Below, in pieces: positions 15,906 through 35,310 of a stretch of DNA of 37,414 nucleotides (position 1 is its first letter; each line of letters begins with the position of its first letter). Position numbers and translations under genes: made by a program. The notes below the pieces were generated by a model. It was given only the letters and a program-made list of their open reading frames with translations, searched no databases and had not been told where the DNA came from. Origin of the DNA: Lachnospiraceae bacterium (GTDB taxonomy: Bacteria > Bacillota > Clostridia > Lachnospirales > Lachnospiraceae); assembly GCA_017626325.1 (NCBI GenBank), contig JAGAIZ010000070.1, positions 1 to 37,414 of the forward strand, read 5' to 3'.

Positions 15906-17501
15906 ATGATAGGAAAACGCAGTGAAAAATTCAGTCTGTCGGCACAGACGATTGACCGGATATCCGCAATCTGTGTTCAGACACTTGGGGATGTGGACAC
16001 AGATAAAAAAGATATTGCGCGTATCCGCTTGTCTTTAGAGGAGATTCTCGGTATCTGGCTTAAGACCATGGAGGGCGCTTCGGTCTGCGTGGACTGCGGT
16101 CAGAAATTTGGACGGGCGTTTCTGGAAGTCAGCGTGGCGGGAGACCGCGCGGATGCATGGGACGAAGATGAGGCTTTGCTATTCAGCAACCGTCTGCTGG
16201 CACAGGCGGGATTGTCTCTTGTTTATACATATAAGAACGGGAAGAACTGCCTTTCCTGCAACCCCGTGAGGAAGTCCCATATGGGGCAGATGACACAGCT
16301 TGTGATAGCGGTTATTCTGGCTGTGGTTTTAGGTCTTGCTGCAAGATTTCTTCCGCAGGAAGGACAGTCAGCGGCGCTTGAGGTGACACAGCCTTTATTC
16401 AATATGATTCTTGGCGGACTCAGGGCGGTTTCTTCGCCGCTTGTATTTCTGGCGGTCTGCTGCGGAATTTTCAGTATCGGCGATCTGACGATGGTGGGTA
16501 AGATCGGCAAGAAGCTGATCCTGCGAATGATCGGCGAAACCTTCATTCTGAGTGTAGTCATGGCTTTTATAGGAAGTTTACTGTTTCCGGTTGTTACGGA
16601 AACAAGCAGTGAAATTTCCGGCAATTTTTCAGTAGTTTATCAGATGGTATTAGGAATCGTGCCCTCAGATATCGTGTCGCCGTTTCTGGAAGGGAACGCA
16701 TTGCAGATTGTTTTCCTGGGGGTTTGTATGGGAGCTGCCCTGCTTGTTTTGGGAGAACGGGTAGCATCCGTCCAAAATATTGCCATGCAGGCGAATGAGA
16801 TCATGCAGTTTATGATGGGCGTGATCGGGAAAATGGTTCCGCTGTTCATGTTCCTTAGTATATTTAATCTGCTGTTATCCGATGTTGACAGCGGATTTTG
16901 GAGTTTGTTGAAGGTATTCGTCATTGCGATACCCGGATGTTTCCTGTTGACATTGCTCTATATCTTTGCGGGAGCAGTCCGGTTGTCGGTCAGTCCGGTT
17001 TTGTTAATAAAGAAATTGCTGCCAACCTATCTGATTGCGCTTACAACAGCTTCTTCGGCTGCTGCGCTTACAACCAATCTTGAGACATGCGAAAAACAGC
17101 TTGGCATTCCGAAAAAGGTGTCGGATTTCGCCATTCCGTTAGGTCAGGTAATTTATAAGCCGGGTTTTATGGTTGGTTTTTTCCCGATCGTGCTTTGCAT
17201 GGCTGAGTATTACGGTGTGTCCATTACACCGCGGTTTCTGGTCATGTCGGTTTTGACGATCTGGCTTCTTGCCATGGCGACACCGCCGATTCCCGGCGGG
17301 GCGCTTTCCGTATTTACCATCCTGTTTGCACAGCTTGGCATTCCCAGCGGTGCGATCGCTCTGGCGGTTGCCGTCAATTCCATTCTGGATTTCTTTATGA
17401 CCTCGGTCGGGCTTGCCTGCCTGCAGGTGCAGGTGACGCTTGCAGCCGGAAATATGGATATGCTGGATTGGAAGAAACTCCGCCGTTCCCCCGAACTGTA
17501 G
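15906..17501 (+). CDS. DAACS-type cation symporter with N-terminal degenerate GHKL domain
   Basis: The 531-residue protein is a fusion. Residues ~1-122 are soluble and resemble a GHKL/RsbW-type domain (helix DIARIRLSLEEILGIWL; end YTYKNGKNCLSCN), but the N-box Asn is missing. Residues ~124-520 form a dicarboxylate/amino acid:cation symporter (GltP family): SSPLVFLAVCCGIFS, the serine-rich TASSAAALTTNLE (~379), FAIPLGQVIYKPG and ATPPIPGGALS. In the last helix LDFFMTSVG (Asp495, Met498) stands where GltPh-like proteins have LDRGRTMVN, so the Arg that binds the substrate side-chain carboxylate is Met. By hand alignment this predicts a non-acidic substrate or a changed coupling. AAGGAG lies ~12 bases before ATG 15906. 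Confidence 0.85.
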   Translation: MIGKRSEKFSLSAQTIDRISAICVQTLGDVDTDKKDIARIRLSLEEILGIWLKTMEGASVCVDCGQKFGRAFLEVSVAGDRADAWDEDEALLFSNRLLAQAGLSLVYTYKNGKNCLSCNPVRKSHMGQMTQLVIAVILAVVLGLAARFLPQEGQSAALEVTQPLFNMILGGLRAVSSPLVFLAVCCGIFSIGDLTMVGKIGKKLILRMIGETFILSVVMAFIGSLLFPVVTETSSEISGNFSVVYQMVLGIVPSDIVSPFLEGNALQIVFLGVCMGAALLVLGERVASVQNIAMQANEIMQFMMGVIGKMVPLFMFLSIFNLLLSDVDSGFWSLLKVFVIAIPGCFLLTLLYIFAGAVRLSVSPVLLIKKLLPTYLIALTTASSAAALTTNLETCEKQLGIPKKVSDFAIPLGQVIYKPGFMVGFFPIVLCMAEYYGVSITPRFLVMSVLTIWLLAMATPPIPGGALSVFTILFAQLGIPSGAIALAVAVNSILDFFMTSVGLACLQVQVTLAAGNMDMLDWKKLRRSPEL

Positions 17502-17563
17502 CAGTGATCCTGAACAAAGGGTGAGGATTACCGCCCGAAAACGAAAAGAGGAGGATGAAAGGA

Positions 17564-20335
17564 ATGAAACAGAAAAGAGTTATGCCTCACAGGTTTCTTT
17601 TACTGCTTTTGGGATGCCTGCTGCTTCTTGGAGGCTGCGGTATGGCGCAGACCCAAACGTCTGAGAAGCAGTTTGCAAGCCTTTCGGATTTTAATGGCGG
17701 GACAGTGGCTACGGTGACGGGCGCAACTTATGAACAGCTTATGCAAGAGGAGTATCCGGACACGGTATGGAGTTACTATGACGATCTGGCGACGCTGATC
17801 GCCGCATTGAAAAAAGGCGATGTGGAGGCTCTGGTTTTAGACAGCCCTGTGGCGGAACTGGCGGCTGCACAGTACCCGGAAGAGCTTGCAGTGTATCCGG
17901 AGGTCATTGCCGCCTGTGAGTTTAGTATGATCATGGAAAAGAATGGAGATCTGACGGAGCCTGTCTCGGAAGCGATACGGAATTTTAAAGCGGACGGTAC
18001 GCTGGATGCATTAAAAGAGAAGTGGTTCAGCGGGGATGACAAGATCATGCGGATCGACTGGTCTGCGTACGACCTTTCGGATCAGGGAGGCGGCGTGCTG
18101 CGGTTTGCCCTTGACCCTGCTACCATGCCCATGGTCTACATGGGAGACGACGGAGAGCCTGCCGGTATGGAAGTGGAGATTGTGCTGTTAGTTGCCAGGG
18201 ATTTAGGCATGGGAGTGGAGTTTATCAACACGAAAACCGCCGCTCTGCCGATGTATATACAGCAGGGGCAGGCGGATATAGCGGCTGCCTGCCTGGTGAT
18301 CACGGAGGAACGTCTGGAAAGCATGGACTTTTGTGAATCCTATTATTCCGGCGGCTTTGTGTTCCTGTGCCGGAAGGATTCGATTGCGGAAGAGGTTCTG
18401 GCGCAGCCGCAGGGAACAGGCACGGAAGGCGCAGCAGACGGAAGGGCTTCCGGCGGGTTTTGGAAGGGACTGGTGTTAAGCTTTGAGAAGAACTTTATCC
18501 GTGAAAGCCGTTGGAAACTCATTGCGGGCGGTCTTCTCGTAACCCTTGAGCTTTCGCTGTTTGCCGGATTATTTGGCACGATATTGGGCTTCCTGCTCTG
18601 CCAGTGTCAAAGAAGCAGGATAAGGATTTTGGCTGTCATGGCAAAGGTGATTTCCAAGCTGATGCAGGGCATACCGAGCCTGGTGGTGTTGATGATCACT
18701 TATTTTGTGGTCTTTGGCTCTGTGAAGATAGATCCGGTGATCGTTGCCGTGATCGCGTTTTCCGTACTTTTTGCCGTATCGGTGGCAGGAATTTTGAATA
18801 CGGGTATTGAAGCGGTGGACAAGGGACAATGGGAAGCGGCGGTATCTCTGGGCTTTGGAAATTTGAAAACATTTACCCGTATCATCATGCCGCAGGCGGT
18901 AAAGCATGTGCTTCCCTTGTATAAAGGCGAGTTTGTGGCAATGATGAAGCTGACTTCCATTGTCGGATATATCTCTATCGAGGATCTGACGAAAGCGGGT
19001 GATATTATAAGGAGCCGTACCTATGAGGCATTCTTCCCGCTGATCGTCACGGCAGTGATCTACTTTGTGCTGTCATCCCTGATCACCGCTGTCATTGGCA
19101 GGATCGAGGTGGTGATCGACCCGAAGCACCGCCCCCGGAGATATCCAAAGGGAACAGATGCAGGCGTTTTTTTGGCAGAGCCTTTGCAGGAGCAGGAGAC
19201 AGCCGTCGGTGAAAACGATGGGGCGCGGGTTTTAGCCGACCCGGATGTTACAGAATTGATACATATTGAGCATTTGAGCAAAGAATATCCCAATGTAAGA
19301 CCGCTTACGGACGTAAATACCGTCATCAACAGGGGTGATGTCATAACCATCATCGGGCCCTCCGGCACCGGCAAATCTACCTTACTGCGCTGCATCAATC
19401 GTCTGGAGACATTAACGGACGGTAAAATTGCCGTTTTCGGCATGGATACCTCCGATAAAAAGACGGATCTGCGGATGCTCAGGCGGCGTATGGGTATGGT
19501 ATTCCAGTCCTTTAACCTGTTCGGGCATCTCACGGTGATTGAAAATGTCATCCTGGCTCCTACTGTGTTAAAAGGCATACCAAAGCAGGAAGCGGTGGAA
19601 AACGGAGTGAGGCTTCTGCGCATGGTGGGAATGGCAGAAAAAGCGCTGAATTATCCGGATGAACTGTCCGGCGGACAGAAGCAAAGAGTGGCGATCGCCC
19701 GTACCCTTGCCATGAACCCTGAGATTGTGCTTTTTGATGAGCCCACGTCAGCGCTTGACCCGACGATGGTGGGAGAAGTCTTAAGTGTAATGAAGCGGCT
19801 GGCATCGGAAGGTCTTACGATGATGATCGTTACCCATGAAATGCAGTTTGCCCGTGATGTTTCTACCCGGATCTTTTACATGGATGAGGGCGTGATCTAC
19901 GAGGAAGGCGCGCCGGATGAGATTTTTGATCACCCGAAGCGGGATAAAACCCGTGCCTTTGTGCAAAGGCTGAAAACACTCAGGCTTTCCGTAGAGTCCC
20001 AGGACTATGATTTTATCGGTATGTCGGAAAGTATCCGTCAGTTCGGGGAGAAGAATCTGCTGTCAAGACGGCAGGTGGACAGCTTGCGCCGTGTATATGA
20101 GGAAATTCTGGCACAGAATATTCTCCGGACGCAGGGAGCGGAATATCCGATCACCATTTCCGTCGAGTATTCGGAAAAAGAGGACCGGCTGGAAATGCGT
20201 TTTGCGTGGAGCGGAGAGCAGTATGATCCTATGGAGGAAGGGGATGCGCTTTCCCTTAAACTGGTGAAAGCCGCTGTCCGGGGACACAGCTATGATTATA
20301 CGGACGGTGTAAATCGTCTTATGTTAAAAATATAA
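17564..20335 (+). CDS. single-chain amino-acid-type ABC transporter with fused GHKL-like domain
   Basis: The 923-residue protein carries a whole importer. A lipoprotein signal (LLGGC) is followed by a type II solute-binding region in permuted order: the lobe-2/C-terminal half (ending [15 protein letters not shown]) precedes the N-terminal half ([31 protein letters not shown]). A HisM-type permease follows (~305-530, EAA loop [13 protein letters not shown]), then a GlnQ-type ATPase (~565-805: [35 protein letters not shown]). The last ~110 residues resemble a degenerate GHKL domain ([23 protein letters not shown]). ATG 17564 lies 9 bases after AGGAGG; ATG 17555 abuts the ribosome site and is less likely. 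Polar amino acid uptake is the family expectation. Confidence 0.88.
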
Positions 20336-20361
20336 CATAAAAGAAAACGGAGGTATGTGAA

Positions 20362-20664
20362 ATGCAGGTTGTTAAGACATTAAATGGGGATGAACTGAAA
20401 GTACAGGTAATAGGAAGACTGGAAACAGTGACAGCGCCGATGCTGGACGGAGAATTAAAAGATTCCCTTGAGGGCGTTGCCACACTGATTTTTGATTTTT
20501 CCCAGTTGGAGTATATTTCTTCCGCAGGTCTGCGGGTGCTGTTTTCTGTGCAGAAGATCATGAACAGGCAGGGCAAAATGATAATCCGCGGGGCAAATGA
20601 AGATGTGATGGAAGTCTTTGAAGTGACTGGCTCTGTGGATATTATGACGATTGAAAAGAACTGA
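20362..20664 (+). CDS. STAS-domain anti-anti-sigma-like protein (first copy)
   Basis: This 100-residue single STAS domain is of the SpoIIAA/RsbV type. Aligning YISSAGLRVL with the DSSGLGV of SpoIIAA places the phosphorylatable Ser at position 54; the preceding Asp is Ser here. The C-terminus (VMEVFEVTGSVDIMTIE) is nearly the same as in the second STAS protein at 26032. GGAGG stands 8 bases before ATG 20362. It lies between the GHKL-fused ABC transporter and the SpoIIE-type phosphatase. In known systems such a protein binds a GHKL kinase when dephosphorylated and is reset by a PP2C phosphatase; both partner types are adjacent here. Confidence 0.93.
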   Translation: MQVVKTLNGDELKVQVIGRLETVTAPMLDGELKDSLEGVATLIFDFSQLEYISSAGLRVLFSVQKIMNRQGKMIIRGANEDVMEVFEVTGSVDIMTIEKN

Positions 20665-20704
20665 ATTAAGCAGGATTAAATATTAAGAAGGACTAAGAGG
20701 AAAG

Positions 20705-22483
20705 ATGGATCAGAAATTACTATCAGGACAGGATTTGGAGAACAATCTGTTTCAGGAAAATGAATGGGAAGCCAACCGGTATGTTGCCAGATGCATGAGA
20801 GTGTTGTCTTTGGTTGCTGTTGCCTGCTGGATTTTGGATCTGCTTGGCGTTTTTATTATTCCCAAGATCATCATGAGTATATCCGTGCCGCTTTTTTTGG
20901 TTATGGCGCTGCTTCCGACACTGTTTTGCAGGTATAAACTGAAATGGATAAAGTATGCCATTATGTGCTGTGTTATAGCAGGGATTTTTGTGCTGTCCTG
21001 CTTTATTTCAAAGCATGTTATCATAGCGTGGACCCTGCCGCTTATACTAAGCTGCCATTATTACTCCAAAAAGATGGCACGCCTTGTATTGCTCATGTCA
21101 GAGGTGCTGTTTTCCCTTTCTATCTATATTGCTATGTACTGGGGAGAATGGGATCAGTTGCTTCTGGATGCGGCTTATTATTCGGGGGAACGGATCATCA
21201 CATCTAAGCTTCTGATTGATAATACGCTTTTCTTTGTCCTGCCAAGAGCGCTTGTGTTGCTGGGCGTCTATACGGTCTGTAAGACGATAGCCGGACGGAC
21301 GCGGGGGCTTTTGGAAAAACAGGCGAGGGACAGCGAAGAGCATCAGCGTATCAGCGCGGAATTAAATGTGGCAACCCATATCCAGACATCTATGCTGCCC
21401 TGTATTTTCCCGGCTTTTCCGGACAGACCGGAATTTGATATCTACGCAACCATGACCCCTGCCAAAGAGGTGGGCGGAGATTTTTATGATTTCTTCCTGA
21501 TCGATGATAATCATCTGGCTATTGTGATGGCGGATGTATCCGGCAAGGGAGTGCCGGCAGCATTGTTCATGATGATCGCCAAAAGTCTGCTGAAAAGCGC
21601 TGCCCAGTCGGGTCTTATGCCCGATGCGGTGCTTGCGAAAGTCAATAATGAACTTGTGGAAAATAACGATGCGGAAATGTTCGTGACCTGCTGGCTGGGA
21701 ATATATGACTTTGTGAGCAAAAAACTTGTCTTTGCCAATGCAGGGCATAATGCTCCGGTAGTCCGACGGAGAGGCGGAGCATTTGAATTTCTTGTATTTC
21801 GTCCCAGCTTCGTTCTTGGGGAGATGGAAAATATCTGTTACCGCACAGGAGAGATCGTATTAAATTCCGGAGACGAGATTTATCTCTATACGGATGGCGT
21901 GACGGAGGCAACAAATGCAAAGAAGCAGCTTTATGGAAACGACAGACTGCTTAAGGTTTTAAACAGCGCTTTTCTCAAAGATGTAAGTGCGGAAACAATA
22001 TGCCGCACGGTAAAGGCGGATGTAGACCGTTTTGTAGGAGAAGCGCCACAGTTTGATGATATTACCATGCTGTCCCTGAAACTTTTGTCCAGAGATTCGA
22101 TCACGGTTGTGCCCACAATGGACAGTATCACTGAGGTTTCGGCATTAGTGGAAGGCGTAATGGAAGAACAGCAGATACCGAAGAAAATTCAGGTAAAGAT
22201 GAATATTGCCGTAGACGAGATTTTTTCCAATATTATCCGATACAGCAAAGCGGATGAAGCAACGGTGGAGTGTGATATCAGAAATGGGCGGATCGGGCTC
22301 ATCTTTACAGATAATGGAGAACCGTATAATCCCACAAGGAAGCCTGACCCTGATACCGGCGCCTCTGCGGATGATCGGGAGAACGGCGGCATGGGCATCT
22401 ACATCGTGAAGCAGTTCATGGACAGCATGGAGTATGAATACCGGGGCGGATATAATATCCTGACACTGATCAAAAATGTGTAA
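20705..22483 (+). CDS. membrane SpoIIE-type PP2C phosphatase with C-terminal GHKL domain
   Basis: The 592-residue protein has about six transmembrane helices (~30-200), a short helical linker, a complete PP2C/SpoIIE domain (~230-455) and a C-terminal HATPase_c domain (~460-592). Metal motifs are intact: EVGGDFYDFF (~254), ADVSGKGVPAALFM (~275), NAGHNAP, YTDGVTEA (~394) and FDDITML (~449). The GHKL domain has an intact N-box AVDEIFSN (~501), G1-type FTDNGEPYNP and GGMGIYIVKQF. It could therefore both phosphorylate and dephosphorylate the STAS proteins beside it. GAGGAAAG precedes ATG 20705. No sigma factor is encoded nearby. Confidence 0.94.
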   Translation: MDQKLLSGQDLENNLFQENEWEANRYVARCMRVLSLVAVACWILDLLGVFIIPKIIMSISVPLFLVMALLPTLFCRYKLKWIKYAIMCCVIAGIFVLSCFISKHVIIAWTLPLILSCHYYSKKMARLVLLMSEVLFSLSIYIAMYWGEWDQLLLDAAYYSGERIITSKLLIDNTLFFVLPRALVLLGVYTVCKTIAGRTRGLLEKQARDSEEHQRISAELNVATHIQTSMLPCIFPAFPDRPEFDIYATMTPAKEVGGDFYDFFLIDDNHLAIVMADVSGKGVPAALFMMIAKSLLKSAAQSGLMPDAVLAKVNNELVENNDAEMFVTCWLGIYDFVSKKLVFANAGHNAPVVRRRGGAFEFLVFRPSFVLGEMENICYRTGEIVLNSGDEIYLYTDGVTEATNAKKQLYGNDRLLKVLNSAFLKDVSAETICRTVKADVDRFVGEAPQFDDITMLSLKLLSRDSITVVPTMDSITEVSALVEGVMEEQQIPKKIQVKMNIAVDEIFSNIIRYSKADEATVECDIRNGRIGLIFTDNGEPYNPTRKPDPDTGASADDRENGGMGIYIVKQFMDSMEYEYRGGYNILTLIKNV

Positions 22484-22525
22484 AAAGAGTGTAACGGATA
22501 ATTCCGGTAAAGGAGGTACTGAATC

Positions 22526-23392
22526 ATGAATACAGAGTATGGAATAGAAAAGCGGCTGCGGGAATTGAATAAAGACCTTCATGAGCGGTATCGGAACTGT
22601 GTGACAGTTGCCGGTCAGATACTCGGACGTTATGAGAACTATTTTCCGGACTTTACGGATCATACATTATTGCATACGCTGGATATTCTGGATCTGTGCA
22701 ACCGTTTGATAGGAGAACAGATCACACTTCTTACGGATGACGACCTCTATGTACTTATGATGGGCGCCTTATTTCATGATGTTGGTATGGGCGTATCCTA
22801 TTCGGATTTTGAGGAATTTGGCAGGGTTTTGAAAATCCCCATACCGGCAAATGATGAGGAGCGGGCATGGGCAGTTCGGGATTATCATCAGGAACTGTCG
22901 GGATTATATCTTAAGAAATACTGGCGGATGTTTGACCTGCCAAACGAGCGTTACGCCCATGCAGTCATTCAGGTCTGCAGGGGACACCGCAAAACGGATC
23001 TGATGGATGAGGCGGGTTATCCTGTGCAATATGAAGTGGAACAGGGAAAAACGGTTTATCTGCCTTATCTGGCGGCTTTGCTCTGTCTGGCAGACGAACT
23101 GGATATTTCCACAGATCGGAATATCAGTTTTATGTATGATGTGGAGAAGATGCCAAGCGCCCGCGACCGCAGGGAGTTTCGCAAGCATATGGCGATACAC
23201 GGTCTGGAACTGGAACCGGAGAAGGTGGTTGTCCGTGCATGGTCTATGGATCAGGAAATTCGTGACGGGGTGGAGGAAGTCTGTGCAAAACTGAAAGACA
23301 AACTTCTGATGTGCCGGCGCGTTGCGGCGCAGCGTTCTCCTTTTACGATATCTCAGGAGGATGTAGAGCTTATTTGGGAGGTGGGCGTATGA
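22526..23392 (+). CDS. HD-domain metal-dependent phosphohydrolase
   Basis: The 288-residue protein keeps the HD metal ligands: His46 and His50 (FTDHTLLHTLDI), His84-Asp85 (ALFHDVGMG), a His at ~153 (CRGHR) and an Asp at ~190 (LADELDIS). The spacing of TDHTLLHT and LFHDVGM resembles the HD-CE type of HD domain, which is often found with GHKL-ATPase proteins; that assignment is from memory. AAAGGAGGT is an excellent ribosome site for ATG 22526. It ends in an ATGA overlap with the first purine permease gene. The substrate could be a nucleotide or a phosphorylated signal. No second domain is evident. Confidence 0.85.
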   Translation: MNTEYGIEKRLRELNKDLHERYRNCVTVAGQILGRYENYFPDFTDHTLLHTLDILDLCNRLIGEQITLLTDDDLYVLMMGALFHDVGMGVSYSDFEEFGRVLKIPIPANDEERAWAVRDYHQELSGLYLKKYWRMFDLPNERYAHAVIQVCRGHRKTDLMDEAGYPVQYEVEQGKTVYLPYLAALLCLADELDISTDRNISFMYDVEKMPSARDRREFRKHMAIHGLELEPEKVVVRAWSMDQEIRDGVEEVCAKLKDKLLMCRRVAAQRSPFTISQEDVELIWEVGV

Positions 23393-24696
23393 AAACACTG
23401 GATCGAATCTTTCATCTGACAGAAAATAATACCACTGTCCGCAGGGAGCTTCTGGGGGCGCTTACCTCGTTTTTTTCCATAGCCTATATTATTTTTGTCA
23501 CACCGGGTTATATGGAGACTGCTGGCATGGATTACACCGGTGTGCTGCTTGTGACATGCATTGCATCGGCAGCCGGATGTTTTATTTCCGCAGCCTTCAA
23601 TCTGCCTTTTATGCTTTCGCCGGGTATGGGGCTGAATGCTTTTTTCACATACACGCTTGTGGGGGCTTGCGGCTATACATGGCAGCAGGCGTTGGCGGTG
23701 GTAAGTCTGTCAGGCATTTTCTATCTTGTCATAAGTCTTACGCCGCTGCGTGATCTGATGGTGTCCTGCATACCGCCCAGTATGAAAAATGCGATCACGG
23801 CGGGACTTGGTATATTTATCGCACTGATCGGGCTTCTAAATTCGGGAATAGTGGAAGCATGCGATGGCAGACTGCTTTTGGGCGACATAGGGGCGCCGGC
23901 TACTTTTCTGGCTGTGGCAGGACTTCTGATCACAGGCGTGCTGATGGCATGGAAGGTAAAAGGCGCCATGTTGATCGGGATTGTTGCCACAACGCTTCTG
24001 GGATTCCCATTGGGAGTCACGGAAATGCCAACGTCTGTATCTTTGTCCTTTGCATCTATAAGACCGATGCTTTTATCGCCCGATTTTAAAGGACTGCTTT
24101 CGCTTGGAGTGATCCCCTTGGTGACGTCTGTTGTTACCTTTACGATGTGCCTCTGCTTTGATACCTTAGGAGCGCTGATCAGCATTGCAGGGGCAGGAGA
24201 TATGCTGGATGAAAAGGGCGGCTTGGGAAAACGCAGCAGAGGAATGACTGCAGTGGCTCTTACAACGGCAGTTTCGCCATGGATCGGGGGTCCTGCTATC
24301 GGCGTTCCGGTGGAGGGGTCTACCGGAGTGGCAGTAGGCGCAAGAACCGGACTTTATACGGCTGCCACAGGCTTATTGTTCCTTGCGGCGATTCTTCTTG
24401 CCCCGATTGCGGGTATCATTCCCGGTGCGGCGACCTCACCGGCACTTATATTGATCGGTATGCTGATGATCGGCAGCGCATCTAATATTTACTGGCATAA
24501 TCTGGAGATTGCCCTGCCATGCTTTCTTACGATGATCATGATCCCCTTTACGTATTCGGCTGCGGATGGCATCGGCGTGGGTTTCCTGTCTTATGTGGGA
24601 ATTCATCTGATTACCGGTAAATGGAGGAAGATCCCTCCTATCACCTATATTCTGGCAGGAATGTTTGCGGTCATGTATATTTTGTCAGCATTTTAA
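23389..24696 (+). CDS. AzgA-type (NCS2) purine base permease, first copy
   Basis: The 435-residue membrane protein has around 12-14 hydrophobic helices. AzgA-branch motifs are visible: SPGMGLNAFFTYTLVG, LCFDTLGALISIAG, PVEGSTGVAVGARTGLYT and PGAATSPALILIGMLMIG. This branch takes up adenine, guanine, hypoxanthine or related bases with cations. The start is ATG 23389, which overlaps the HD gene stop as ATGA and follows GGGAGGTGG; an earlier in-frame start at 23311 would lie deep inside the HD gene. The usual ESAAG motif is EGSTG here, so specificity may differ from housekeeping permeases. Confidence 0.92.
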   Translation: MKTLDRIFHLTENNTTVRRELLGALTSFFSIAYIIFVTPGYMETAGMDYTGVLLVTCIASAAGCFISAAFNLPFMLSPGMGLNAFFTYTLVGACGYTWQQALAVVSLSGIFYLVISLTPLRDLMVSCIPPSMKNAITAGLGIFIALIGLLNSGIVEACDGRLLLGDIGAPATFLAVAGLLITGVLMAWKVKGAMLIGIVATTLLGFPLGVTEMPTSVSLSFASIRPMLLSPDFKGLLSLGVIPLVTSVVTFTMCLCFDTLGALISIAGAGDMLDEKGGLGKRSRGMTAVALTTAVSPWIGGPAIGVPVEGSTGVAVGARTGLYTAATGLLFLAAILLAPIAGIIPGAATSPALILIGMLMIGSASNIYWHNLEIALPCFLTMIMIPFTYSAADGIGVGFLSYVGIHLITGKWRKIPPITYILAGMFAVMYILSAF

Positions 24697-24707
24697 GGAG
24701 GACATCA

Positions 24708-26015
24708 ATGGATATGTTAGAACGTCATTTTCATATAAGGGAGCGGGGCTCCAATATAAGACAGGAGCTGCTTGGAGGATTCACGATGTTTTTTGCGGCT
24801 GCGTATCTGGTCGTGATCGTTGCGGGCATCATGGCGCCGGTAGCAGGAGCGGATGAGACCGCTGTTGGATGCCTGATTTGTTTTTTTGCGGCTGTATCCT
24901 GTCTGCTGACAGGTTTTCTGTCAAATCTGCCTTTTGCGGCAGCGCCCGGCTTAGGGTTTGCCTTGTTTTTCTCTCAGACGCTGGTCGGCAGATATGGATA
25001 TTCTTTCAGCGAGGCGCTGCCGGTTGTTTTCCTCTCCGGCATCCTGTTTCTGGTGATCAGTCTGACGCCGCTGCGGGAGTGTCTGCTGGAAGCCGTCCCG
25101 CTGCCCTTTAAATTTGCGGTCAGCGCAGGAGTTGGCTTGATGGTTACGTTATCCGGTCTGATCAACGCAGGGCTTGTCACGGCAGAGAACAATCTGCTTG
25201 ATATGGGGAATATCATATCGCCCGGACCGCTGCTTGCATTCGCGGGCGTGTTCATCACATCGGCGCTGCTTTTGAGAAAAGTGCCGGGCGCAGTGCTGAT
25301 CGGGATGTTCTGTATTACGGTTTTGGGGATTCCCTTTGGGATCACGAAGATTCCAGACCAAATGTTTGCCGGATGGAATATGAGCTTTGCCGCTTTTCAT
25401 CTGTCCGGTGTATTGGAAAAGGGGGCGCTGCCATTTGTTTCTGCTTTGCTGGCGCTTTTGCTTTCCGACTGCTTCGATGTGGCAGGAACACTGCTTGGCG
25501 TAGCCGGGGATGCCAAAATGACAGACAACACGGGCGATCTGGAGGGCAGCGGAAGAGCCATGGCTGCGGTTGCGGTTTCTACCTGTGCCGGGGCATTGGC
25601 GGGAGTACCAAACAGCGTACTTTTGGTGGAATCTGCGGTAGGTGTGCGGGAAGGCGCCCGTACCGGACTTTCGTCCATCGTGACAGGATTGCTGTTTCTG
25701 GCGGCTGTCCCATTTGTGCCGTTACTCGGACTGATACCCGGCGCTGCCACTGCGGCTGCATTGATCGTTGTCGGCATGGGAATGATGTCCGGGATTTCAC
25801 AGATCACATGGAAGCATGTGGAGATCACACTGCCTTGTTTCCTGATCATTGTAGGAATGCCGTTTACCGGCTCTATCACGGACGGGATAGCGCTTGGGTG
25901 CATTTCTTATGTGGTGGTCATGGTCTGCCGCAGGCGGGCGAAAGTTGTCAATCCGTGGATGTATGTGCTGGCAGGACTGTTTGTGCTGATGTATGTGTTT
26001 CAAATAATAACTTAG
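24708..26015 (+). CDS. AzgA-type (NCS2) purine base permease, second copy
   Basis: This is a second 435-residue permease, the same length as the first and clearly a paralogue (N-terminus LERHFHIRERGSNIRQELLG; shared ISLTPLR, ARTGL and PGAAT motifs). The signature loop is VESAVGVREGARTGLSS, closer to the canonical ESAAGV form than the first copy's. AAGGAGG at 24695-24701 lies 6 bases before ATG 24708; the longer frame from 24621 would overlap the first permease. It sits 11 bases after the first copy. Divergence between the two suggests different purines or a heteromeric pair; neither can be chosen from sequence. Confidence 0.92.
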   Translation: MDMLERHFHIRERGSNIRQELLGGFTMFFAAAYLVVIVAGIMAPVAGADETAVGCLICFFAAVSCLLTGFLSNLPFAAAPGLGFALFFSQTLVGRYGYSFSEALPVVFLSGILFLVISLTPLRECLLEAVPLPFKFAVSAGVGLMVTLSGLINAGLVTAENNLLDMGNIISPGPLLAFAGVFITSALLLRKVPGAVLIGMFCITVLGIPFGITKIPDQMFAGWNMSFAAFHLSGVLEKGALPFVSALLALLLSDCFDVAGTLLGVAGDAKMTDNTGDLEGSGRAMAAVAVSTCAGALAGVPNSVLLVESAVGVREGARTGLSSIVTGLLFLAAVPFVPLLGLIPGAATAAALIVVGMGMMSGISQITWKHVEITLPCFLIIVGMPFTGSITDGIALGCISYVVVMVCRRRAKVVNPWMYVLAGLFVLMYVFQIIT

Positions 26016-26031
26016 ATGAGGAGGCTTTATC

Positions 26032-26328
26032 ATGGAGATCAAAAAAGTAACCAGTGGAAATGAATGTACGCTTACTGTGATTGGGAGGCTTGATACAACG
26101 ACTTCGCCAAAGCTGGAGGCTGAGCTGAAAAGTTGTCTGGATGGCATTCAAAAACTGATATTTGATTTGGCTGAACTTGAGTACCTTTCTTCGATGGGAC
26201 TGCGGGTACTGTTTGCAGCACAGAAAAGGATGAACAAACAGGGCAGCATGACAGTGCGGCATGTCAATGAAGCAGTCATGGAAGTATTTGAAGTTACCGG
26301 GTTCGCGGATATTCTGACGATCGAGTGA
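26032..26328 (+). CDS. STAS-domain anti-anti-sigma-like protein (second copy)
   Basis: This 98-residue STAS domain is a close paralogue of the protein at 20362. They share IGRL, the YLSSMGLRVLF core with candidate phospho-Ser54, and the ending VMEVFEVTGFADILTIE. GAGGAGG precedes ATG 26032, which is 16 bases after the second permease. Having two STAS proteins with one phosphatase suggests two branches or two client transporters. Its position after the purine permeases parallels the first copy's position after the ABC transporter. Confidence 0.92.
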   Translation: MEIKKVTSGNECTLTVIGRLDTTTSPKLEAELKSCLDGIQKLIFDLAELEYLSSMGLRVLFAAQKRMNKQGSMTVRHVNEAVMEVFEVTGFADILTIE

Positions 26329-26370
26329 GGCTTGTGGTAATGTGCTTTGCAGCATAATGAGGTAAAAAGA

Positions 26371-28053
26371 ATGATTTTTCGGTCTTTTAAACCGCAGTAC
26401 CGGCGCTTTCCCGCCCTTATGCTTGCGGTTGTGGTATTGATAAGCGGTTGTAGAATTTCAAAAGGCACAATAGAAGCGCAAGACATCATCATATTATATA
26501 CCAATGATGTACATTGCGCCGTGCGTGATGATATTGGTTATGCCGGACTTGCGGCTTATAAGGAGTGGTGCGGGGAAAAGACGCCCTATGTCACGCTGGT
26601 TGACTGCGGGGACGCCTTGCAGGGGGATGCGATCGGAACGATCTCCCAGGGGGAATATCCGGTAGAGATCATGAACCGTGTGGGATATGATTATGCAGTG
26701 CTTGGCAACCACGAGTTTGACTATGGCATGGAACGGCTTTCCGAGTTGCTGGAACAAAGCAATGCCAGGTATCTTGGCTGTAATATCCGTTATACCGGAA
26801 GTGATCAGACTTTTCTTTCCCGGCTTTCGGCTTATGAGATTGTTACTTATGGCGATGTTAAAGTGGGATTGATCGGTGTGTCAACGCCGGAGAGCATCGT
26901 CAAATCCGTTCCTGCGTATTTCTGCGATGAAAATGGAAATTATGTCTATGATTTTTGCGGGGAAAGCGGGGAGGAATTGTATGAATGCGTGCAGGAAAAT
27001 GTGGATGCCTGTATAGAGGAAGGTGCGGACTATGTGGTGGTTTTGGCGCACCTGGGAACAGATGAGGCTTCTTCGCCTTTTTCATCAGTCGATCTGATCG
27101 CGAATACGAATGGTATCGATGTGTTGTTGGACGGACATTCCCACAGCGTGATTTCCTGTGATGTAGTGAAGAATGCGGACGGCGGGAATGTACTTTTGTC
27201 TTCCACCGGCACAGGTCTTAATAATATCGGACGCCTTACCATTACCGCAGACGGCAATATACAGACAGGCTTGATCGGGGAGTATCCGGAGACGGACAGT
27301 GAAGTAGCAAGTTATATTGAAAGCATGGAAGAGGCATATGAATCCGAACTGGATCAAAGCATTGCTGTCACTGACGTACCGCTTACGATAAGCTCTGATT
27401 CCGGTGTGCGGTTGATCAGAAACAGGGAAACCAATCTGGGAGATTTCTGTGCAGATGCTTACCGGGCTGTGTCAGGGGCGGATATTGCCCTTGTAAACGG
27501 CGGCGGCATCCGGGCAGATCTGGAAGCCGGAGAGATTACCTATGGGGACATCCTCAGTGTACATCCCTATGGGAATACGCTCTGTGTTGCAAAAGCTACC
27601 GGGCAGGAGATATGGGACGCTTTGGAGATGGCGAGTCGTCTGACCCTTTCGGATGCAAGTGACGGAGAGAATGCGGCAGGCGAAAATGGCGGGTTCCTGC
27701 AAGTGTCGGGTTTGCAATATACGATCGACACCGGTGTGGAATCCACAGTAGAAGTGGATGCACAGGGAAATTTCATATCCTGCGGGGATACCCGGCGGGT
27801 AAAGGATGTGATGTTCTTACAGGAAAACGGCAGCTATACAAATTTGGAGCCGGATAAGATTTATACGGTAGCCTCCCACAATTACCTGATCAAAGAAGGC
27901 GGGGATGGGCTGAACATGTTTATGGATCATGAACTGATCGTTGATGAGGGTATGCTGGATTATCAGATACTTATGACATATCTCACGGATCATCTTGGAG
28001 GTACGGTGGGAAGTGAATATGCCGAACCGCAGGGACGGATTACGGTTGAATAA
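26371..28053 (+). CDS. lipoprotein 5'-nucleotidase / 2',3'-cyclic phosphodiesterase (UshA-like)
   Basis: The 560-residue enzyme has a lipoprotein signal ending LISGC. A metallophosphatase domain follows (LYTNDVHCAV, DCGDALQGD, GNHEFDYG, LAHLG, LDGHSHS), then the 5'-nucleotidase C-terminal domain (NGGGIRADLEAG, GDILSVHPYGN, ASHNYLIKEGGDG). All metal and substrate motifs look intact, so it should dephosphorylate nucleotides outside the membrane. ATG 26371 lies after GAGG at good spacing; a TTG at 26347 is possible. As the last gene of the operon it could feed nucleosides toward the two purine permeases, although base release would still need a nucleosidase not seen here. Confidence 0.93.
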   Translation: MIFRSFKPQYRRFPALMLAVVVLISGCRISKGTIEAQDIIILYTNDVHCAVRDDIGYAGLAAYKEWCGEKTPYVTLVDCGDALQGDAIGTISQGEYPVEIMNRVGYDYAVLGNHEFDYGMERLSELLEQSNARYLGCNIRYTGSDQTFLSRLSAYEIVTYGDVKVGLIGVSTPESIVKSVPAYFCDENGNYVYDFCGESGEELYECVQENVDACIEEGADYVVVLAHLGTDEASSPFSSVDLIANTNGIDVLLDGHSHSVISCDVVKNADGGNVLLSSTGTGLNNIGRLTITADGNIQTGLIGEYPETDSEVASYIESMEEAYESELDQSIAVTDVPLTISSDSGVRLIRNRETNLGDFCADAYRAVSGADIALVNGGGIRADLEAGEITYGDILSVHPYGNTLCVAKATGQEIWDALEMASRLTLSDASDGENAAGENGGFLQVSGLQYTIDTGVESTVEVDAQGNFISCGDTRRVKDVMFLQENGSYTNLEPDKIYTVASHNYLIKEGGDGLNMFMDHELIVDEGMLDYQILMTYLTDHLGGTVGSEYAEPQGRITVE

Positions 28054-32967: not shown

Positions 32968-32994
32968 AAAAGCGCTGCAGGAATGAGGAAGATA

Positions 32995-35310
32995 ATGAAC
33001 AGAAGAAGAACCTGTATATATGGCGTCGTCATGACGGGAATCATTTTGTTTTCCTGTGTTTTTATTGCTTTGATCGGATATATGAATTTCAAAGCAAATT
33101 ATCAGGAAATTAAGGATGCCGCTTATGGTGAAATTGCACATGAATTTGTAGAACAGATTGAGGATGCTTTAAGCTTTGGCAAGAGTCTGGAGAATTACTA
33201 TGGCATGGCAGAAGTTTTTGAACAGTGCAGGAAGCGTCTGGGAGAAGATACAGAACTGTTCGTAATCGATACGAAGGATAATTTCTGCTATACCGCCTTT
33301 GAAGAAGAGCGGTATCAGCAGATACAGCAGGCAATCCTTCACAGGAATTTTCAGCAGGCCAAAACACAGGAAGGAAGTATCCGGATCAACCATTATAATT
33401 ATCTGCTGAATGCCATTGAAAATGACAACGAGGTAATCGGTTATTATGTGGCAGTATATTCAGATCAGGTAATTGAAGATTTGCTGTCGGATGTGAGAGA
33501 AGCTGTGATCGTTCAGACACTGATCTGCACGGCGGCGCTGTTGCTTTTGTTTTTTGCAGGAAGTGTTCTTTTATCTCGTTTCCGTACGGTATGGACTAAA
33601 ACAGACAGGATACGGCATATTTATCCGCTGGCGCTTATTTTGTGTACGTTAATCCTGCAAAGCGCCTGTTCTTTATATGTCTATCAGAATAGCTATCGGG
33701 ATTGCATGATAGCAGGCGCGGATGAGATTATGACTCATTTGCAGGAATCGATTTCATCTCTTGTAGAAAGCGGTGTTGATTTAAAAGAGATTGACGGAGT
33801 ATCGGAGTATTTAGGGGAAAAAGTATCGCAGATGCCGATTCTGTGGAATATAAGGATTTCTGATGAAATTGCCAATGCGGCAGAAGAACGGGAGAATACA
33901 CTGTTAAAGCGTTATAGTCTGGATGGAGCGTATCTTACGCTGGAGGCGGAATTGTCTGCTGAATATATTCAGGATAAGATGACACAGAATGTTCTGGTGC
34001 TTGTCTCCACGTTGATTATTATGATGATATTGATTCTTGAACTGATGAAGCTTCCGGGTCTTAGTATGTATCTGGCAAGCGAAAAAAGAAACAGGGAATG
34101 TGACGAAAGCTATCTGCAGGTAAGCAATACGCTTAGAATCTCGGGCTTTCTGTGCAGTACGGCGGAATATATATGCGTACCTTATGCAGCAATGATGATC
34201 CGGGAATGGAATGAATCGGTATTAGGACTGTCAGTGGGAATGACTGCGGCGCTGCCCTTATCTTTAGAGTGTTTCATGCAGATGGCAGCCATGCTTATTC
34301 TTCCAAAGATAATCGGGAAAATGGATATACGCAGGGCATTGGCGATGTTCGGCGTATCTATGGCGGCTATTAATTTCGCAGCCTTTTTTGCTGACAGTGC
34401 AGCCGCCATCATATTGTTCCGCGGGGCAGCGGGCATTGCCTATGCAGGATTTAAGCAAATCTCCAACTATCTGATTACAAGAGGCTATCATACGGAATTG
34501 GAGAGAAGCCGCAATTTGTCCCAGGATAATGCGGGACTCTTAGCGGGCGTGACCTGCGGGGCAGGGCTTGGAGCCATTATCTGTGAAACCGCCGGATATT
34601 CCGCCACATTTCTTGTTTCTGCGGGTGTGTTCGCGGTATATCTGCTGCTGACACTATTTACAGTACCGTGGAAATGGCTGAAACAAAAACAAAGTGATGA
34701 AAAGAAGGCGGATAAAATAGGCGTGAAAAATCTTATCCGCATGATTTGCTCAAAGCAAATGCTCTGGTACATTGTGCTGATTGGTATGCCGTTAAATATC
34801 GGCGTACAGCTTTGCGTGACGTTAATCCCCGCAATCTGCCAGAAGGAAGGAATTTCTACGGCAATGCTGAGCTATTGCTATATCGTCAATGGAATTGCGG
34901 GGATTTACATCGGACCGGCATTGGTCAACGTTGTCAAAAAGAAGATGGGGATATGTCCGGCGATTGCTGCTGCAATGGCTTTGACAGGCGCTTCGCTGCT
35001 TCTGTTAAAGATGCCGCCGGCGGTAGTTATGCTGATGATTGCCAGTATGGTATTCGGCTTTTTGGATGGCTTTGCCACGCCCCTGTCTATGGATGAATTT
35101 ATGGAACTGTCTGTTGTGAAAAAGACAGTGACAGAATCTTCCGCCTTAATTATCTGCGTGGTGCTTTCCTATATATTAATGACGATTGCGCCCATGATTG
35201 CAGAAACGATGTTATTGGAAACTGACTTTTTTTTAAGTCCGCTGATGATCGGTGCAATCGCGTATTTTCTTGCGGCATTTCTTTTAATGCGGGCAAAAAG
35301 GAAACGATAG
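32995..35310 (+). CDS. MFS transporter-like protein with two N-terminal extracytoplasmic sensor domains
   Basis: The 771-residue protein starts with a helix (~5-30) and an extracytoplasmic domain (~31-165). A helix pair (~168-191 and ~208-230), a second extracytoplasmic domain (~231-326) and another helix (~328-353) follow. A core of some ten to twelve helices then begins near 375, reading as an MFS transporter (SVGMTAALPLSLECFMQMAA, GAAGIAYAGFKQISNYL). Both outer domains have the size and placement of Cache-like sensors. GAGGA precedes ATG 32995; ATG 32983 has a weaker ribosome site. It follows the orphan binding protein by 27 bases and is the last gene of the operon. I infer a sensor-transporter. 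Confidence 0.8.
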   Translation: MNRRRTCIYGVVMTGIILFSCVFIALIGYMNFKANYQEIKDAAYGEIAHEFVEQIEDALSFGKSLENYYGMAEVFEQCRKRLGEDTELFVIDTKDNFCYTAFEEERYQQIQQAILHRNFQQAKTQEGSIRINHYNYLLNAIENDNEVIGYYVAVYSDQVIEDLLSDVREAVIVQTLICTAALLLLFFAGSVLLSRFRTVWTKTDRIRHIYPLALILCTLILQSACSLYVYQNSYRDCMIAGADEIMTHLQESISSLVESGVDLKEIDGVSEYLGEKVSQMPILWNIRISDEIANAAEERENTLLKRYSLDGAYLTLEAELSAEYIQDKMTQNVLVLVSTLIIMMILILELMKLPGLSMYLASEKRNRECDESYLQVSNTLRISGFLCSTAEYICVPYAAMMIREWNESVLGLSVGMTAALPLSLECFMQMAAMLILPKIIGKMDIRRALAMFGVSMAAINFAAFFADSAAAIILFRGAAGIAYAGFKQISNYLITRGYHTELERSRNLSQDNAGLLAGVTCGAGLGAIICETAGYSATFLVSAGVFAVYLLLTLFTVPWKWLKQKQSDEKKADKIGVKNLIRMICSKQMLWYIVLIGMPLNIGVQLCVTLIPAICQKEGISTAMLSYCYIVNGIAGIYIGPALVNVVKKKMGICPAIAAAMALTGASLLLLKMPPAVVMLMIASMVFGFLDGFATPLSMDEFMELSVVKKTVTESSALIICVVLSYILMTIAPMIAETMLLETDFFLSPLMIGAIAYFLAAFLLMRAKRKR

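Follow-up and report, generated by a model that had tools for sequence, protein, structure and literature searches.

A candidate partner-switching module with predicted pseudokinase domains on transporters in a Lachnospiraceae genome

The subject of this analysis is a string of genes at positions 15906..28053 of a 37,414-nucleotide stretch of DNA from a Lachnospiraceae bacterium (contig JAGAIZ010000070.1 of assembly GCA_017626325.1), hereafter the window, which appears to encode a partner-switching module whose kinase-like domains are in part fused to membrane transporters. All the features that a first-pass annotation, made from the letters alone, had claimed for this string are present where it placed them, by open frames and Pfam:

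15906..17501, + strand: DAACS (SDF) transporter, 531 amino acids (aa), with a predicted degenerate RsbW-type GHKL domain at the N-terminus (15906-16280) and the SDF match at 16293-17408.
17555..20335, + strand: amino-acid ABC fusion protein, 926 aa, with solute-binding stretches, a permease, an ATPase (~19259-19972), and a predicted degenerate RsbW-type GHKL domain at the C-terminus (19955-20332).
20362..20664, + strand: STAS protein 1, 100 aa, with candidate phospho-Ser54 (codon 20521-20523).
20705..22483, + strand: SpoIIE-type phosphatase, 592 aa, with an intact C-terminal GHKL kinase domain (22106-22480).
22526..23392, + strand: HD-CE domain protein (by Pfam), 288 aa.
23389..24696, + strand: NCS2-type permease, related to AZG adenine/guanine permeases, without a fused domain.
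24708..26015, + strand: NCS2 permease (Xan_ur_permease by Pfam), without a fused domain.
26032..26328, + strand: STAS protein 2, 98 aa, with candidate phospho-Ser54.
26347..28053, + strand: 5'-nucleotidase-like protein, probably exported (by eye), its start possibly at 26371.

The small gaps and overlaps between these genes suggest that 15906..28053 forms a single predicted transcript. The first five genes are separated by 53, 26, 40, and 42 bases, and the later ones overlap or lie 11-18 bases apart, given preferred later start codons (the frame 23311-24696 likelier starts at 23389, and the frame 24621-26015 at 24708). In promoter and terminator scans, promoter-like sites were fewer than in shuffles, and nothing was drawn from them.

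Partner switching is known from textbooks as a way of controlling transcription, and the module resembles its SpoIIAA/SpoIIAB/SpoIIE and RsbV/RsbW/RsbU versions in possessing a STAS protein with a conserved phospho-Ser position, a GHKL kinase, and a SpoIIE-type phosphatase. The 592-aa protein, annotated at first pass as a phosphatase with an intact GHKL domain, bears out that description: it matches SpoIIE (E 4.7e-51) and HATPase_c_2 (E 4.9e-19) in Pfam, and in alignment its C-terminal GHKL domain retains all six ATP-site residues. Its N-terminal part is hydrophobic by eye and probably anchors it in the membrane. Both small proteins have a STAS match in Pfam, and Ser54 of each, already singled out as a candidate phospho-Ser, aligns with the RsbV phosphosite Ser56, a position occupied by Ser in 56/56 distinct module STAS proteins. 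A SpoIIE-GHKL relative elsewhere (L106:2982-5843) bears a 5TMR-LYT sensor domain, so that loci differ in the input side of the module. At two further loci (L056:11043-12233 and L132:16814-18001), a STAS domain adjoining fused DAACS or ABC genes carries a long C-terminal part, which Pfam assigns in L056 to an APH-type phosphotransferase and which looks similar by eye in L132; such fusions possibly provide another predicted route to STAS phosphorylation. No natural STAS-GHKL fusion was found among the labelled neighbourhood proteins: the sole long STAS fusions there have no GHKL part, and the one scanned carries an APH-type domain.

In contrast to the Spo and Rsb systems, the module has no SigF-like gene nearby, carries additional kinase-like domains deficient in ATP-site residues on its transporters, and displays reversed interface charges. 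The first-pass statement that no sigma factor is encoded agrees with a search of the window, which returned no SigF-like gene with a query of one SigF that could miss unlike sigma factors. SigF-like genes occur at 1/79 named loci and 0/78 family loci, compared with 20/20 spoIIA loci. Given their absence from the window and near absence from the named loci, the module, which would work like a partner switch, is not classed with the sigma-regulating ones.

The domains that set this module apart are hardly visible to routine annotation. Pfam is blank over residues 1-125 of the DAACS protein and residues ~807-926 of the ABC protein, and across their relatives it recognises the domain in only 2/29 DAACS and 1/23 ABC members (E ≤0.01). 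Profile comparison is more revealing. A profile (A1) of the window DAACS N-domain and seven from family genomes matched true GHKL domains in hhalign with a probability of 94.5% and an E of 7.8e-8 (94.0% for a 29-member DAACS N-domain profile), and it matched the window's SpoIIE GHKL domain at E 5.7e-7 and the window's ABC protein at E 3.9e-6. Profile-profile support for the ABC C-domain as a GHKL domain is weaker (77.9% jointly with a MATE domain; 68.9% for 23 ABC domains), but the pair of ABC and MATE domains matches A1 at 95.0%. AlphaFold models were obtained with a mean predicted local distance difference test (pLDDT) of 87.2 for the DAACS domain (29 sequences) and 93.8 for the ABC domain (23 sequences), and for both predicted domains UsfX/anti-SigF, SpoIIAB, and RsbW chains took the first 18 places in Foldseek searches of the PDB. 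In VIA-align, the DAACS domain model scored 13.1 with RsbW (root-mean-square deviation [rmsd] 2.4, 111 aligned) and 12.8 with UsfX, and the ABC domain model scored 14.1 with UsfX (rmsd 2.3, 117 aligned), 13.0 with SpoIIAB, and 12.5 with a SiaB-SiaC entry; the best histidine kinase reached 8.2 and 7.6, respectively. As modelled, both fused domains, that of the DAACS and that of the ABC transporter, are thus RsbW/SpoIIAB-type Bergerat folds. This upholds the earlier claim of GHKL-like parts covalently attached to transporters, which structure prediction, the check proposed for it, could have refuted and did not. By sequence, the DAACS N-domain profile found nothing credible among PDB chains, and fold comparison alone succeeded. 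A 689-aa protein at L073:9738-11807, which matches the fused-domain profile at its N-terminus and has an ABC ATPase at its C-terminus, perhaps represents a further class of transporter bearing such a domain.

The fused domains depart from true kinases at the ATP site. Six residues (the N-box Glu and Asn, the G1 Asp and Gly, and both G2 Gly) were scored on one alignment of distinct sequences, comprising 34 kinases and 158 transporter-fused domains, with the DAACS set being the window's clade. All six are present in 34/34 stand-alone or phosphatase-attached kinases, a count that is partly by construction because the kinases were picked with a profile of intact domains, compared with 0/158 transporter-fused domains. 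The G1 Asp is found in 0/92 DAACS, 0/52 ABC, and 7/14 MATE domains, and the N-box Glu in 84/92, 52/52, and 14/14. Dereplication at 60% identity leaves an intact site in 13/13 kinases and in 0/19 DAACS, 0/12 ABC, and 0/11 MATE clusters. With their ATP site so eroded, the fused domains of the DAACS and ABC classes look like docks for STAS proteins rather than kinases. At L132:19540-21261, a MATE transporter has a C-terminal GHKL domain with 5/6 ATP-site residues, which may be an intermediate or a still active kinase joined to a transporter.

The surface that would face the STAS protein tells a different story. According to the available part of PMC7340262, RsbW Asp42 bonds RsbV Arg84 and Arg87, and RsbW Glu49 bonds RsbV Ser56; alignment and construct numbering identify Glu49 as the N-box Glu. 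Of 56 distinct module STAS proteins, 55 have Glu or Asp where RsbV has Arg87. On the opposing side, the Asp42 position is Arg in 76/92 DAACS domains (Gln in 15), Lys or Arg in 27/52 ABC and 8/14 MATE domains, and Gln (20), Lys (13), or His (1) in the kinases. Sporulation pairs of the same family, among them that of the window's own genome (L206) and with the truncated SpoIIAA of L299 left out, have Arg or Lys at position 87 of SpoIIAA in 20/20 cases and Asp in SpoIIAB in 20/20. Judged from these alignments, the STAS-facing surface of the fused domains is largely kept, with its charges reversed, and the conserved contact residues together with the reversal lend indirect backing to putative STAS binding. 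The pattern fits, without proving, a module insulated from sporulation in which one interface is common to kinase and transporter domains.

Both transporters bearing the domain are recognisable, and they differ in how intact they appear. The ABC fusion protein has two SBP_bac_3 stretches, BPD_transp_1, and ABC_tran in Pfam, and its Walker A, signature, Walker B, and H-loop motifs are present. Among the fused ABC proteins, Walker A and the signature occur in 26/26 (the Walker B pattern missed 2 and the H-loop pattern 5), which argues for predicted working pumps and so favours gating. The DAACS protein matches SDF (PF00375) at residues 130-501 (E 7.3e-59), with YKPG in place of the NMDG cation motif and, in transmembrane helix 8 (TM8), Met replacing Arg, Gly replacing Asn, and Leu replacing Asp; the roles of these residues are those known from GltPh. 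Window-clade DAACS proteins have lost NMDG and the TM8 Asp, with other positions conserved; the TM8 Arg is present in just 5/20 unfused relatives. Given the lost NMDG and the replaced TM8 residues, an acidic amino acid is an unlikely substrate for the window protein. A second DAACS group, of ~550 aa, has NMDG in most members and is mostly unlinked. As for the NCS2 permeases, the first has no Pfam match, finds AZG1 in the PDB (E 3.2e-45), and is 42% identical to the product of the next gene; neither has a fused domain, which leaves the first-pass suggestion that purine transport is gated unsupported. The HD-CE gene (22526-23392) recurs next to NCS2 genes at L113, L122, and L125-L127, all of them named loci. 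Elsewhere in the window, at 32983-35310, an MFS transporter with ~380 extra N-terminal residues adjoins an ABC_sub_bind protein; the extra part belongs to no Pfam family and does not match the fused-domain profiles.

The arrangement is not confined to the window. A1 matches 48/397 family genomes, some of the matches being true kinases, including the window's SpoIIE protein, and the ABC profile matches 26/299; at the phylum level, 10/398 genomes match (E ≤1e-6), seven of them outside the window's family. A contig scan with a profile of five closer DAACS proteins (one of 15 full DAACS proteins was too divergent) yielded 144 relatives of the DAACS protein, from which 79 loci were kept. These are mostly from Lachnospiraceae and other Clostridia, and they include the cultured Blautia schinkii DSM 10518 (L132), Oscillibacter sp. 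MSJ-31, Sporofaciens musculi, Petralouisia muris, a Spirochaetaceae metagenome-assembled genome, and the archaeon Methanocorpusculum petauri. In the last, a methanogen, the fused DAACS gene stands alone (L174:9989-11605) and was probably acquired by transfer. Gene strings like that of the window recur: L096 has DAACS, ABC, STAS, SpoIIE-GHKL, NCS2, and 5'-nucleotidase genes, and in genome G157 neighbouring genes encode DAACS, STAS, a MATE transporter whose C-terminus bears a like domain, what looks by eye like an acetyltransferase, SpoIIE, and a kinase on its own. Two tandem fused DAACS genes flank the gene for a small cyclic-nucleotide-binding protein at L156:11640-12104.

Linkage was quantified in family genomes as a STAS, SpoIIE-type, or kinase gene within 9 kb, on either strand for DAACS and on the same strand for ABC genes. 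Such a neighbour accompanies 7/36 fused versus 0/21 unfused DAACS genes (p 0.03) and 8/26 fused versus 0/23 unfused ABC genes (p 0.003); pooled without the window, the figures are 13/60 versus 0/44 (p 0.0004). The DAACS count covers 57 genes from 64 rows; outside it are second gene pieces, one partial match, and five unfused rows (L187, L188, L194, L196, and L203) that have no such neighbour and would add zeros. The 26 fused ABC genes are 20 from ABC-profile rows plus L064, L075, L079, L086, L087, and the window; the profile gave 34 rows in all, and those not used are of the MATE type, kinases, or partial matches, apart from one of ABC length (G233:C89) that was left out. In the named set, 50/98 DAACS genes (11/17 clusters at 60% identity) have such a neighbour on the same strand within ≤10 kb, with a STAS neighbour in 10/17 clusters and a fused ABC neighbour in 9/17; all these figures are lower bounds owing to contig ends, and the cluster figures are raised by counting a cluster via any member.

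Taken together, the architecture is real, recurrent, and, as far as sequences tell, under interface-like constraint, and transport gating is a plausible proposal for its output. The reading that we consider probable, if well short of secure, is a partner-switching module with transporters as its output, gated by unphosphorylated STAS proteins docking on pseudokinase sockets; in the putative docking step by itself we have distinctly greater confidence. The SpoIIE protein, combining a phosphatase with an intact GHKL kinase, would set the Ser54 phosphorylation of the STAS proteins. Unphosphorylated STAS would then dock on the fused domains, and phospho-STAS would not, a step proposed because these domains have lost their ATP-site motifs and largely keep the STAS-facing surface. 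Docking would alter transport activity, most simply in the ABC protein, whose domain is attached C-terminally to an ATPase with intact motor motifs, and one switch may set several transporters together.

Several observations weigh against this gating reading. Transport by the DAACS protein is itself uncertain, as its cation and substrate residues are altered. Dereplication at 60% identity softens the interface argument: the Asp42 position is basic in 6/12 ABC and 6/11 MATE clusters (17/19 for DAACS), and the N-box Glu remains in just 14/19 DAACS clusters. The ATP site is better kept in some MATE-fused domains. Non-sporulation STAS proteins in these genomes generally have an acidic residue at position 87, even where the kinase has Gln, so the charge reversal is not unique to transporter pairing. 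In family genomes, 29/36 fused DAACS and 18/26 fused ABC genes lack any STAS, phosphatase, or kinase neighbour within 9 kb. The linkage is real, yet most fused transporters stand alone. Of the linkage on which the first-pass annotation would have had its proposal stand or fall, the association itself held, being absent from unfused controls, while its generality did not, and conserved linkage was rejected as proof. Co-occurrence at the genome level makes action of the module in trans possible: non-sporulation STAS genes (TIGR02886 E above 1e-20) are present in 27/28 genomes with fused transporters versus 3/18 without (p 2e-8), in a comparison that ignores shared ancestry and whose 18 controls were the first listed without a match, not a random draw, six of them <90% complete and with MATE-fused domains possibly missed. 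These controls hold six non-sporulation STAS matches, the one in L302 with Lys at position 87, and genome G395 has fused transporters but no STAS match.

The alternative that survives best, although we think it improbable, casts the transporters as sensors: substrate occupancy would change the STAS protein held by the fused domains, and free STAS would act elsewhere. The window's DAACS class lacks NMDG and the TM8 residues, as a receptor might, and the many unlinked fused transporters could all contribute to one shared STAS pool; sensor kinases fused to transporters are known, CbrA for example. However, the Walker A and signature motifs of all the fused ABC proteins lead one to expect transport, and at least one phosphatase relative, that of L106, has a sensor-type membrane domain of its own. 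It is less likely still, and on balance doubtful, that the domains are structural relics that aid assembly or stability without binding STAS. Lost ATP-site motifs and the many unlinked genes would suit a relic, but the kept STAS-facing glutamates, the charge reversal, and the genome-level STAS co-occurrence would be unexpected for one, and the domain is attached to at least three transporter families. Least credible are membrane-tethered anti-sigma factors from which STAS frees a sigma factor, for although the best structural matches are anti-sigma factors, including SpoIIAB-SigF (1l0o) and an anti-sigma factor-SigF entry (8jzt), SigF-like genes are nearly absent from the named and family loci compared with spoIIA loci, an unlinked or unlike sigma factor being conceivable.

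Precedents exist for parts of the gating scheme. In the accessible portion of PMC7367683, the STAS protein MlaB binds the ABC ATPase MlaF and is needed for its function, and its phosphosite-equivalent Thr52 lies at the interface, where a phosphomimetic lowers binding; evidence of phosphorylation in cells, a kinase, or a phosphatase is not reported in that portion. The likeness is a STAS protein acting on an ABC ATPase; the difference is that MlaB contacts the ATPase directly and that a GHKL domain is absent. The SiaABC switch of Pseudomonas aeruginosa (SiaABCD) has an enzyme as its output, a diguanylate cyclase; a transporter-fused pseudokinase is not mentioned in the portion of PMC7647112 at hand, and the word "transporter" is absent from its main text. 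SLC26/SulP proteins, as far as the available text of PMC8256260 describes them, likewise put a partner-switch domain family on a transporter, but there the STAS domain is fused, while here the GHKL domain is fused and STAS is free. CapK/CapS and VapK/VapS are GHKL-STAS pairs with other outputs (PMC13373217, available part). Among the matches listed from the open-access literature, none describes partner switching joined to fused transporters, in keeping with the first-pass opinion that the architecture is undescribed.

More tentatively, and as a generalization that we hold to be slightly less probable than its negation, the module may be one instance of a control bus of gut Clostridia, in which a charge-reversed, sporulation-type phospho-switch acts on a pseudokinase socket carried by at least three unrelated transporter families (DAACS, amino-acid ABC, and MATE), so that one sensor phosphatase would set nutrient and efflux fluxes without transcription, both within operons and in trans. 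If the kinase fold of partner switching has indeed become a reusable, catalytically dead socket on transporters, bacteria would be able to pass a signal from a sensor phosphatase to nutrient uptake quickly and post-translationally, by a route readily overlooked, given how seldom Pfam detects the socket. It would also offer a concrete, testable case for the proposal in the MlaFB abstract that small regulatory proteins control ABC transporters more broadly (PMC7367683), and the reversed interface charges would insulate this phospho-switch from that of sporulation.

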